Part shown: positions 5,620 through 19,134 of the stretch, piece after piece
Position numbering within the stretch: the first letter of the stretch is position 1
How the letters are laid out: each line of letters starts with the position of its first letter
Origin: Nanobdellota archaeon
GTDB taxonomy: Archaea; Nanobdellota; Nanobdellia; Parvarchaeales; Parvarchaeaceae
DNA length: 33,311 nucleotides
Direction of reading: 5' to 3'
NCBI GenBank assembly: GCA_021846665.1
Contig: JAJZWM010000008.1
Location: forward strand, 1-33,311
Notes under the pieces: model-generated
Told to the model about the DNA's origin: nothing
The model's input: only the letters and a program-made list of their open reading frames with translations
Database searches by the model: none
Translations under genes and position numbers: made by a program

Positions 5620-6924
5620 TTAATTAAATAATTCTCTTGAATACAATAAATCTATTGCATTCGAATACATATCAGAATAGGTTTTACCTGTTGATTCATT
5701 TAACATTTCGTAAAGAAAGCCCTTATCCAAGGATAATGATTTTGCCATTTCGCCGATATTTTGACTATTTACACGCGGCCAGTAAAGCTTTATTTTATCA
5801 GTATTTGATTCGGTTTTATTGCCTAATTTATCTCCTATAAAATCGCCTATATCCTTTGCCATTATCCTTGAAGTACTCAATTTACCACCTACTATGCTTA
5901 TTATCCCACCCATATTATCGGTAACGGAATGATCAAATATCTTGAAATCTCTGCTAGCTTTTCTACTATCATCATTTTCTCCTGCAGCTATTAAAGGTCT
6001 TACACCTGCGTAGTATCTGGAAACTGGGTAATTTGCAAGAATAGGCAGCATTTCACTACCAGCTTTCTGCAGAAAGCCAATATCCTCTTTGTCAACATCA
6101 AATTTATCTGGATCATCAACAATAAAGGCAGTAGTTCCTATAATCGAATCATTGAAAAATGGCACAACTATATCGCCATCAGAAGGCTCTCTAAGCCTGT
6201 TTATTATGTGTTTTGTGAATCTTCTGTTTATTACTGCCATTGTACCTGCTGAAAGTATCATTTCTATGCTTTTTATACCCAACTTTTCGTCTATAAGTTT
6301 TGATGCCCATGCCCCGCTCGCATTTACAACTAAATCAGCTTTTAATTCACTTGTTTCTCCAGTATTATTGTTTTTTACTTTAACGCCCTTTATATCATTT
6401 CCTTCTTTTATGAAATCTATTACCTCAGTGTTTAACATAATTTTTGCGGATTCCCTCTTTGCAGTCAGTAATAAACTTGTTATGAATCTAAATGAGTTTA
6501 TTACCTTATCCGGTACTCTATAAACTGCTTTTACTGAACTGTTAAGAAAAGGCTCATCCTTAAGAGCAGTTTCTATACTGATAGATTCTATGGGAATATT
6601 AGACTGTTTGCAACCATTTTCAAACTTACCTTGAAAAGAAAGATCTTCATCATTCAAAGCTACAAATAGACCACCAGTATTTTCTATACAGAATGAAGCT
6701 ATATCGGAGATAACTTTATTATCTAATATACTTTCCTGAGCTGCTTTAACATCATTCATTGCGTATCTTGCTCCACTATGAAGCATTCCATGAAATCTTC
6801 CGCTTGTCCCACCTATTATATTACCTTTCTCTATAACTGTAACATCAAAGCCACGACTAGCTAAATCATGTGTAATGAAAGAACCTGTTGCGCCTGCACC
6901 TATTACGATTATTTTGTTTGACAT
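5620..6924 (-). CDS. glpA: FAD-dependent glycerol-3-phosphate dehydrogenase, GlpA type
   Basis: A 434-residue flavoprotein of the DAO family. The N-terminus has the dinucleotide-binding motif VIGAGATGSFITHDLASRG and an acidic VIEKG strand end. GGTSGRFHGMLHSGARYA and INRLREPSDGDIVVPF are characteristic of GlpA, which oxidises sn-glycerol-3-phosphate to dihydroxyacetone phosphate and passes electrons to the membrane. The C-terminal GGIISIVGGKLSTSRIMA is the FAD-contact region. E. coli GlpA is about 100 residues longer, and GlpB/GlpC partners are absent here, so its electron route is unknown. TATA-like TTAAATAT (6947-6954) is about 26 bp from the ATG with no Shine-Dalgarno. The CoxG-like gene follows after one base. 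Another 2-hydroxy-acid oxidase of the same fold is possible but less likely. Confidence 0.82.
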   Translation of the reverse strand: MSNKIIVIGAGATGSFITHDLASRGFDVTVIEKGNIIGGTSGRFHGMLHSGARYAMNDVKAAQESILDNKVISDIASFCIENTGGLFVALNDEDLSFQGKFENGCKQSNIPIESISIETALKDEPFLNSSVKAVYRVPDKVINSFRFITSLLLTAKRESAKIMLNTEVIDFIKEGNDIKGVKVKNNNTGETSELKADLVVNASGAWASKLIDEKLGIKSIEMILSAGTMAVINRRFTKHIINRLREPSDGDIVVPFFNDSIIGTTAFIVDDPDKFDVDKEDIGFLQKAGSEMLPILANYPVSRYYAGVRPLIAAGENDDSRKASRDFKIFDHSVTDNMGGIISIVGGKLSTSRIMAKDIGDFIGDKLGNKTESNTDKIKLYWPRVNSQNIGEMAKSLSLDKGFLYEMLNESTGKTYSDMYSNAIDLLYSRELFN

Positions 6925-7012
6925 GCTAATAATAAATGATATTTACTTAAATATCTAGATTATATTTAAAATGAATAATAATTAAATGATAAATTTGCGC
7001 AAACTTTTTCAA

Positions 7013-7726
7013 CTAATTTAATTTAAGATACAAACGCTTATTCTGTTTTCCTTTGTTTTCAAAGCGTTCTAAAGTAATGTGCCCGACTTCATTTGTGTTT
7101 TTAACATGTGTTCCGCCGTCCATTTGCTCATCAAGCCCAGAAATCTCTATAACTCTTACAATATCTAAAGTATTCATCAATTCTCTTCCTGGCTGCGTTC
7201 TAACAAGGTTCTTATTCGCGGCTTCTTCTTTTGTTAAGAACTTTACATTTACTTCATGACCTTCAGAAATGATAGTATTGGCCTTTTCTATAATTTCAGA
7301 GGCCAATTCCTTTGTCAAGCCATCCATACTTATATCTATCCTTGCTCGATCATCATATATCTGATTGCCGGTTATTAAACTTGAGTTATAATCCCTTTCG
7401 AGTACACCATCAATTATATGTATAGCAGTATGCAGCTTCATATGTGCGTATCTTTTTTCCCAATCAAGAATTTCTTTTATTTCATCCGCTTCATTTGCAG
7501 CTATCTCTCTATCTAATACTAAAACAATATCTTTTCCGTCTTTTTTAATGTCTTTAACAGAATATTCCTCTTCTTTATACAAAACTTTTCCACTGTCAGC
7601 TGGCTGGCCCCCTCCTTCGGGATAAAAGATATCTATATCTACTGTAATTTCACTACCATCTTTATTTATTATCTTTGCGTATGTCTCCTTTAGATATGAG
7701 TCTTTAAGGTATAATTTTTCTGTCAT
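7013..7726 (-). CDS. alaX: AlaX-type alanyl-tRNA editing protein
   Basis: A free-standing homologue of the alanyl-tRNA synthetase editing domain. It hydrolyses Ser- or Gly-tRNA(Ala) in trans. At 237 residues it has the size of the medium AlaX-M class. FYPEGGGQPADSG near 34-46 is the typical N-terminal loop. Metal-site motifs are LHTAIH (H99, H103) and MDGGTH (D203, H207). In the classic synthetase site the residue at D203 is cysteine. The gene has its own TATA-like element (ATTATATAAATAA at 7744-7756, about 24 bp from the ATG), suggesting a leaderless mRNA. Confidence 0.9.
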   Translation of the reverse strand: MTEKLYLKDSYLKETYAKIINKDGSEITVDIDIFYPEGGGQPADSGKVLYKEEEYSVKDIKKDGKDIVLVLDREIAANEADEIKEILDWEKRYAHMKLHTAIHIIDGVLERDYNSSLITGNQIYDDRARIDISMDGLTKELASEIIEKANTIISEGHEVNVKFLTKEEAANKNLVRTQPGRELMNTLDIVRVIEISGLDEQMDGGTHVKNTNEVGHITLERFENKGKQNKRLYLKLN

Positions 7727-16186: not shown

Positions 16187-16399
16187 TTATTCTGCTTTAA
16201 GCCATTTCCTAGATAAAAATGCTCCTACCCCTAAGAATAGGAAACAAAATATAACAAGATACAAAAGGAAAAGGAAGTTCGTAGGAGTATTCAGCACAAA
16301 TGATCTACCCAGTCCGACAGCAAATGATATATTATCTACTGCCTTAAAATTACCGTATTGTTTGCTAAGATCCCTAACATTTACTGTTATTTCATCCAT
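16187..16399 (-). pseudogene. in-frame fusion remnant: ABC ATPase N-terminus joined to ABC-2 permease C-terminus
   Basis: Seventy codons that read as two unrelated halves. Residues 1-28 (MDEITVNVRDLSKQYGNFKA, then VDNISFAV) align without gaps to the start of the next ATPase (LTKKFGDFTADNAISLKV) and stop just before Walker A should begin. Residues 29-70 read as the last helix and tail of an ABC-2 permease (FLFLLYLVIFCFLFLGVGAF, then SRKWLKAE). The join is near 16305-16316. The simplest reading is a deletion of over 1.5 kb, removing most of an ATPase gene and most of its permease and fusing the ends in frame. It starts one base after padR (TGATATG) and ends two bases before the intact ATPase. 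It could still make a 70-residue single-TM protein. Confidence 0.75.
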
Positions 16400-17683: not shown

Positions 17684-17980
17684 TTAATCTTTAAATTTAC
17701 TTATTTTATAAGATAAACCGAATGAGTACTTCTTTGCAAGATCATTAAGCCTGCTTTTTAATTCATATTTATTTGAAATGATATAAAAGTTAATATCAAT
17801 GGCAACGGTCTCGGAATTCAAAAGGTTATAGCTAGAAGAATAAACCAAGGAATCTCTTAATAAATCTCTCTTAAAATTATCGGCCTTTGAAAAAACATCT
17901 AGATTTGACTTACCAAGTAATGTTAAATTACAATCAAAGAGAAATTCATCTAAACTTTCATTTTTTTTATTTAGTACCAT
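17684..17980 (-). CDS. hypothetical protein, second gene of the pseudokinase operon
   Basis: A 98-residue soluble protein, rich in Asn, Ser and Leu, with a likely helical N-terminal half and strand-forming VAIDINFYII. It has no signal peptide and no recognised motif. Its ATG follows the pseudokinase-like gene by three bases, so the two are one transcription unit. Function is unknown; the pairing is the only clue. Confidence 0.6.
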   Translation of the reverse strand: MVLNKKNESLDEFLFDCNLTLLGKSNLDVFSKADNFKRDLLRDSLVYSSSYNLLNSETVAIDINFYIISNKYELKSRLNDLAKKYSFGLSYKISKFKD

Positions 17981-17983
17981 TTT

Positions 17984-18883
17984 TTACAAATTTGGATAAA
18001 TTGATATATATTTTTCAGTATAATTATTAATTAACATCTTATTTTTAAGCTCTGCCCATTTTATGCTACGATTTATTGATTTAATTCTACGCTCATCTGA
18101 CGCAAAAAAGTGTGATTTTATATCCTGGCTATTTATAGGATTTATGAAGCCTACTTTTACTTTCTTATTTTCATCCCAATAAATAACTATATTTTCAAGG
18201 TAAAGATTATTGTGTGATAAACCTTTTTCATTAACATCTTTTATAGTCTCATTTATCTGCTTTTTTATTTCATTTAGTTCTTCTATCCTTGCTTTGTAAA
18301 CGTCTATCCTTACTTTGTATTCTTTTAGATACTTCTCGCCATATGCAAGTTTTTTAATACCTTTTTTGAGTATAAAGTCCTTAAGTTCGTTTTTTGGAAT
18401 TAGATCTTGTAGAGAGGTTACTTTACTAATCTCTTCCGAAATTAATTTTTCATCCCAATCTTTGTAATTTTTAAGGTATTCTTCTAGAGATACTGACCTT
18501 GGAATATAATTTCTTACCTCGCTTCCACTAAAAGGAGCAGTTATATAGCCAACACGCTTATTTGAATCATCTATTATTAATGCAACTGGCTTTGAGAAAT
18601 TATCTGGTCTACTAGCGTAAAGATTATTTAATAATTTATACTGTCTTGCAAAATAATCATCAAAGAAACCTGTATTATAGAGATTATTAAACTGTAGATA
18701 TTCTCTACTTTTTATATTAGGAAATGTATCTGTTGCATATCTTTCATTTACCAGTAACCCAGAATCATTAAAGTAATTTGAATTCTTTACAAATTCCTTT
18801 TTCAAAGTTGGATTACCGTCTATATCATTCTTGTACGGTAATGACTTAAGCAATTTTTCGATGCTTGATAATTTCTTTGCCAT
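17984..18883 (-). CDS. protein-kinase-like fold, probable pseudokinase
   Basis: A 299-residue protein I do not recognise as a named family. Residues 224-231 read HNNLYLEN and line up with the kinase catalytic loop HRDLKPEN, followed by IVIYWDE and then VGFINP where the DFG (or DxD) strand should be. The catalytic Asp is replaced by N226 and the metal-binding Asp by G245, so it probably cannot phosphorylate. The N-terminal part (KPVALIIDDSNKRVGYITAP) resembles the first strands of kinase-like proteins in which a linker follows GY(I/V). A glycine loop is not evident. It is the first gene of a two-gene operon, with a TATA-like element near 18931-18940. A nucleotide-binding or scaffold role is possible. 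Confidence 0.6.
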   Translation of the reverse strand: MAKKLSSIEKLLKSLPYKNDIDGNPTLKKEFVKNSNYFNDSGLLVNERYATDTFPNIKSREYLQFNNLYNTGFFDDYFARQYKLLNNLYASRPDNFSKPVALIIDDSNKRVGYITAPFSGSEVRNYIPRSVSLEEYLKNYKDWDEKLISEEISKVTSLQDLIPKNELKDFILKKGIKKLAYGEKYLKEYKVRIDVYKARIEELNEIKKQINETIKDVNEKGLSHNNLYLENIVIYWDENKKVKVGFINPINSQDIKSHFFASDERRIKSINRSIKWAELKNKMLINNYTEKYISIYPNL

Positions 18884-18972
18884 ATTTTAATTTAATTACT
18901 TTTTAATTGTAAATTAAGGATAATTTCTAATATAAATACTTAACTATTTCTGATATTTAACCAAAATAATTA

Positions 18973-19012
18973 TACTCTTATAATCTAATAATCTAATAGT
19001 CTAATACTCTAA
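18973..19012. repeat. 8-bp tandem repeat TANTCTAA, five copies
   Basis: The copies, in order, are TACTCTTA (one mismatch), TAATCTAA, TAATCTAA, TAGTCTAA and TACTCTAA. The third base varies while the rest is kept. Copies are directly abutting. This may be a simple microsatellite or a set of protein-binding iterons. Confidence 0.75.
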
Positions 19013-19098
19013 TACTAATCACTACTATAATTTTTTTAAATGATTCCTTATCTAGATCTTTTATAATTTCATAATTTAAGTATATTTTATAATTCTCG

Positions 19099-19134
19099 AA
19101 ATTTAAATGAGTACTCTAAATTTGGATCAGATCC
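19099..19134. repeat. two adjacent palindromes
   Basis: AAATTTA (19099-19105) and TAAATTT (19117-19123) flank the perfect palindrome GAGTACTC (19109-19116). Directly after this comes GGATC-A-GATCC (19124-19134), followed by CGTTTT. Both could be protein-binding sites or form short hairpins. Nothing ties them to a known element. Confidence 0.55.

Follow-up and report, generated by a model that had tools for sequence, protein, structure and literature searches.

Much is known about eukaryotic pseudokinases, and bacterial ones have now been described. A locus in a small archaeal genome raises the question of whether a kinase-like protein has lost catalysis there as well, and whether the small gene next to it encodes its partner. 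The locus lies in a window (the whole stretch of DNA analysed, 33,311 nucleotides) that makes up contig 5 of a genome of 725 kb, and the nearest named relatives of this genome are Parvarchaeota/Nanoarchaeota MAGs. An earlier reading made without database searches (the sequence-only reading) had described here a two-gene operon, in which a kinase-like protein without catalysis and a small partner would form a sensor or scaffold module. The two open reading frames (ORFs) that it reported, three bases apart, were recovered at the same coordinates:

17684..17980, minus strand: SM, a 98-aa protein with a predicted beta-alpha-beta-beta-alpha-beta fold (ORF, AF2, Foldseek)
17984..18883, minus strand: PK, a 299-aa pseudokinase-like protein (ORF, profile alignments, paralogue comparison)

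A kinase-like protein is counted as a pseudokinase when at least one of the beta-3 Lys, the HRD Asp and the DFG Asp has been lost (PMC12599244), and such proteins are known in all domains of life (PMC8141879). Our limited literature search found no description of an archaeal pseudokinase family. From the homology, residue loss, monophyly, purifying selection and gene order set out below, we consider it probable that PK is a pseudokinase from a family of kinase-like proteins restricted to one genus, that it would have a non-catalytic binding or allosteric role, and that a third gene, A, is its most widely kept neighbour.

Homology of PK to kinases

Searches of Pfam and PDB with the single PK sequence returned only sub-threshold matches or chance coiled-coil matches, so that a PK profile was needed. 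The window protein has no match to the Pfam Pkinase family (PF00069), and its orthologue L025 scores 14.4 bits against the gathering threshold of 31.7; a weak match of PK to the Kdo/WaaP kinases (PF06293), over residues 205-248, likewise falls below the cut-off (15.9 versus 21.3 bits). When a profile of ten PK orthologues was compared with PDB, the best 60 of 67 matches were all protein kinases (best E 0.0035), and most of these 60 align over the catalytic-loop segment including HNN.

The closest relatives of PK were found within the same genus, which encodes many paralogues of 180-260 aa with the motifs HGD....N and IDP. Lys36, His136, Asp138, Asn143 and Asp156 are invariant in all 16 of these HGD paralogues analysed. 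Twelve of them reach E<=0.01 against Pfam Pkinase, and at least one passes the gathering score (36.5 versus 31.7 bits). An hhalign comparison of PK with the 16 paralogues gave a match of 99.5% (E 2.4e-22), spanning alpha-C, beta-4/5, the catalytic loop and the DP position. PK thus shares with the HGD/IDP kinases, including the one in the window's own genome (L106), the kinase core, the beta-4/beta-5 block KP.AL....GY....G and the context of the catalytic loop; the HGD/IDP kinases keep Lys, the HGD Asp and the DP Asp, whereas PK lacks the two Asp residues and probably the Lys, and carries a long helical insert (around residues 137-203). Likewise, the catalytic-loop region of PK aligns with Pkinase (PF00069) and with PK_Tyr_Ser-Thr (PF07714), but PK stays below the Pkinase cut-off that a paralogue passes. 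These profile comparisons indicate that PK derives from kinases.

An AF2 model of PK built on ten sequences reached a pLDDT of 82.6 and a pTM of 0.80. The fifty Foldseek matches listed for it are all kinase or pseudokinase domains, in agreement with the fold that the sequence-only reading had expected, with weak scores throughout (E>=0.033, query-normalised TM<=0.33). As the E and TM values are weak, the model backs the kinase reading only loosely.

Loss of the catalytic residues

The segment HNNLYLEN (PK residues 224-231) had been read as the kinase catalytic loop, and this assignment holds, as most of the listed PDB profile matches align there and the aligned paralogues read HGD. H224-N225-N226...N231 thus takes the place of the HRDxxxxN loop, with Asn226 in the window for the catalytic Asp, as the sequence-only reading had stated. 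In the merged alignment, the catalytic Asp is present in 16/16 paralogues and lost in 10/10 PK orthologues, nine of which have Asn and one Arg (L010, at position 226); Asn231 is kept in all ten. Homologues without a conserved HNN motif had been named as evidence that would count against a pseudokinase, and the orthologues do not supply it, because the loss of the catalytic residue is conserved in all ten.

For the metal-binding Asp a correction is required. The earlier assignment of this position to Gly was misaligned by three residues (G245); within VGFINP (residues 244-249), the DFG/IDP position is I247-N248-P249, so that N248 stands against the IDP Asp invariant in the 16 paralogues. Eight PK orthologues, including that in the window, have Asn here, one has His and one, L007, retains Asp; a further departure from the motif is the loss of His in L008. 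The beta-3 Lys is probably missing from PK too: N66 aligns to it in two alignments (hhalign and merged), in a part of the N-lobe that AF2 models as a helix with low confidence. The placement is uncertain because Asn46 offers an alternative match; neither residue is Lys. Around alpha-C, a set of residues invariant and specific to PK was found (D52, P55, N66, G72, F74, F78 and R80-Q81-Y82).

The PK orthologues form one clade in the tree (support 99/95). A second degenerate kinase-like clade (L044, L047, L049) lies near it with modest support (82/80), and has one member in the window's genome. This paralogue (L047:1297-1998, contig 11) has the loop PESTFSIKD and NM at the DP position, and overlaps the last part of the coding region for a 309-aa protein that contains hydrophobic segments.

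By features alone, PK resembles the bacterial ActPs2 pseudokinases (PMC12599244) in having Asn for the HRD Asp, a probably replaced beta-3 Lys, a lost DFG and an insertion between beta-3 and alpha-C. It differs in that ActPs2 proteins are mostly actinobacterial, often membrane-associated, and carry Arg for Lys.

The dN/dS ratio of PK, where it could be estimated, is about 0.09-0.11 when the window is set against the nearest relatives, and 0.07-0.12 among the closest genomes, so that PK is under purifying selection; for SM, the window gives about 0.12-0.17 against the nearest relatives, again where it could be estimated. Because orthologues exist and dN/dS is low, both ORFs are taken, on this comparison, to be real genes. 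A putative promoter element also lies 5' of the PK start, and is kept in most orthologous leaders:

18931..18938, minus strand: TATA-box-like element TATTTATA

Gene order and a deletion scar

In relatives with the full locus, the genes are A (~170 aa), PK, B (241 aa), C (131 aa) and SM (98 aa), followed on the opposite strand by a gene which, from its sequence alone, we take to be superoxide-dismutase-like (SOD). SM lies ~1.15 kb from PK in these relatives, with B and C between them, compared with 3 bases in the window. About 1158 nt of the related locus L024, covering the end of PK and genes B and C, are missing from the window; on the two flanks, the window DNA agrees with L024 at 82% (as far as the end of PK) and at 85% (SM and beyond). 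Two further features were located:

17984..17993, no strand: deletion junction (window_rc 1908 = L024 892; window_rc 1917 = L024 2051)
18993..19109, minus strand: gene A remnant, about residues 128-165 of 172 (71% identity to the A of L025, with a stop)

Neither B nor C, nor an intact gene A, was found in the window's genome. With only a remnant of A left in the window and both B and C lost, PK and SM adjoin there only by deletion, and the alignment marks their 3-base spacing as a deletion scar, not an ancestral operon. The proposed two-gene operon is thereby contradicted, since B and C intervene in relatives and the adjacency is not kept in orthologous loci. A caution follows for similar loci, as tight spacing in one reduced genome may mark a deletion and not an operon.

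Elsewhere in the window, a second scar was noted at 16187-16399, where an ABC ATPase start (16317-16399) is joined to a permease end (16187-16329); this region is ~1.5 kb shorter than in L025, and L026 has a similar fused 84-aa ORF. In the full locus, genes B and C (L025:5916-6641 and 6682-7077) share the ordered motifs V-W/F-G..Y and Y..F....F..GY/GR, a weak hint from sequence of a common origin.

Distribution of PK, A and SM

Across 371 genomes sampled from the phylum, PK and gene A occur in the window's genus alone, and no relatives were found in viral contigs. At least seven genomes have gene A beside PK, and among these is the distant pair L009/L010, which occupies another chromosomal site; in G011 and G018, a distant A-PK pair lies beside a PEP-synthase-like gene. 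In G008 and G010, where A-PK is retained and C runs in the reverse direction, SM was not found. SM occurs without PK in three genomes (G003, G005 and G009), which also retain A, and PK occurs without SM in four. Gene A is intact in G003 and G009, its stop being the terminal one; PK is reduced in G003 to a stub, of which the leader and first codons remain, and is absent from G005 and G009. In G021, A and PK are on separate contigs. Given these gene orders across genomes, A is the most widely kept neighbour of PK, and SM appears to have once been an operon neighbour of PK rather than a partner dedicated to it. A consistent retention of the PK-SM pair across orthologues, which the sequence-only reading had proposed to look for, is therefore not seen.

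On a tree of the SOD gene, presence and absence of PK are interleaved such that about three changes are required; no branch of this tree is strongly supported. In G001, where the frame of gene A is broken, the neighbouring 401-aa ORF (L064:170-1375), presumably TnpB-like, gives a hint of transposon activity near the island.

The SM protein

SM has no Pfam match up to E=5, no meaningful PDB sequence match, and no homology was found to A, B or C. Its AF2 model (pLDDT 86.8) has the order beta-alpha-beta-beta-alpha-beta, and Foldseek gave a probability of 1.00 for matches to ACT domains and to ferredoxin-like domains related to them, with MgtC C-terminal domains and NikR among its matches; the TM-score to GcvR (1u8s) is 0.67. 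The resemblance to ACT proteins such as GcvR is one of predicted fold, with no sequence match. SM may sense a small molecule, a role that the fold does not settle because ferredoxin-like folds are too common.

Role of PK and alternative explanations

PK would have arisen from the small HGD/IDP kinases of one Parvarchaeota (DPANN) genus by loss of the phosphoryl-transfer residues, with Asn for Lys (in the best alignment), for the HGD Asp and for the DP Asp, and with Asn231 kept. Its most likely role is non-catalytic, in binding or allosteric control (as a regulator or scaffold), within an island that appears to be eroding and to vary between strains. The adjacency of the genes suggests the product of A as the likeliest partner; against this, A persists without PK in three genomes and lies on a separate contig in one.

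Several other explanations have been weighed against this one. Kinase folds can support other chemistries, such as SelO-type AMPylation and SidJ-type glutamylation, and PK might be such an enzyme, its conserved Asn residues forming a rebuilt active site. The presence of Asn at the catalytic position in 9/10 orthologues, of N225 and N231 in 10/10, and of several invariant polar residues specific to PK fits this idea, as a decayed pocket would not need such conservation; however, loss appears to have affected all three classical residues at once, and the motif variation in L007, L008 and L010 exceeds what a strict active site would tolerate, which makes this explanation improbable. We hold it to be similarly improbable that PK is a functionless gene decaying in an eroding island: its neighbours in the window are deleted or remnants, and it is a stub in one genome and absent from two, but its frame in the window is open, its dN/dS against the nearest relatives is ~0.1 and its TATA-like leader is retained.

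The half of the sequence-only reading that saw a kinase without catalysis is upheld by the hhalign match and the residue loss; the half that made it a two-gene module fares worse. A dedicated PK-SM sensor module, in which SM would be the ACT-like ligand sensor, would suit the adjacency in the window, the presence of both genes in several genomes and the predicted fold of SM, but the adjacency is a deletion product and each gene is found elsewhere without the other, which makes it decidedly improbable. The idea that PK has no relation to kinases, being mostly helical, with HNN arising by chance, draws on the weak Foldseek scores and sub-threshold Pfam matches, and has very little left in its favour given the strong profile match to the HGD kinases and the PDB profile matches listed, which are only kinases.

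If the pseudokinase account is followed, an active-looking HGD kinase in the same cell would be a plausible target of PK, and the window's genome encodes one (HGDLVGGN, L106:1498-2064) besides matches of Bud32/RIO size. A bolder version, which we regard as possible though doubtful, is that PK founds an archaeal pseudokinase family specific to this genus, where Asn has taken the place of the Lys, of the catalytic Asp and of the metal Asp, and whose neutral pocket would bind a ligand or partner, or catalyse a non-kinase reaction, and control the HGD kinases of the genus itself. A 0.7-Mb DPANN genome carries active-looking and apparently dead paralogues of one kinase family, and therefore the loss of catalysis may be traced within one genus. 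Several HGD-type kinase-like genes per genome occur in many genomes of this genus, of 0.6-0.9 Mb, with scores far above those in the other genera sampled. A separate locus (L118:393-1832) encodes a 479-aa protein with two tandem kinase-like domains, the first with HGDIHPSN and the second with YGDLNDRK, in which the loop Asn is lost.
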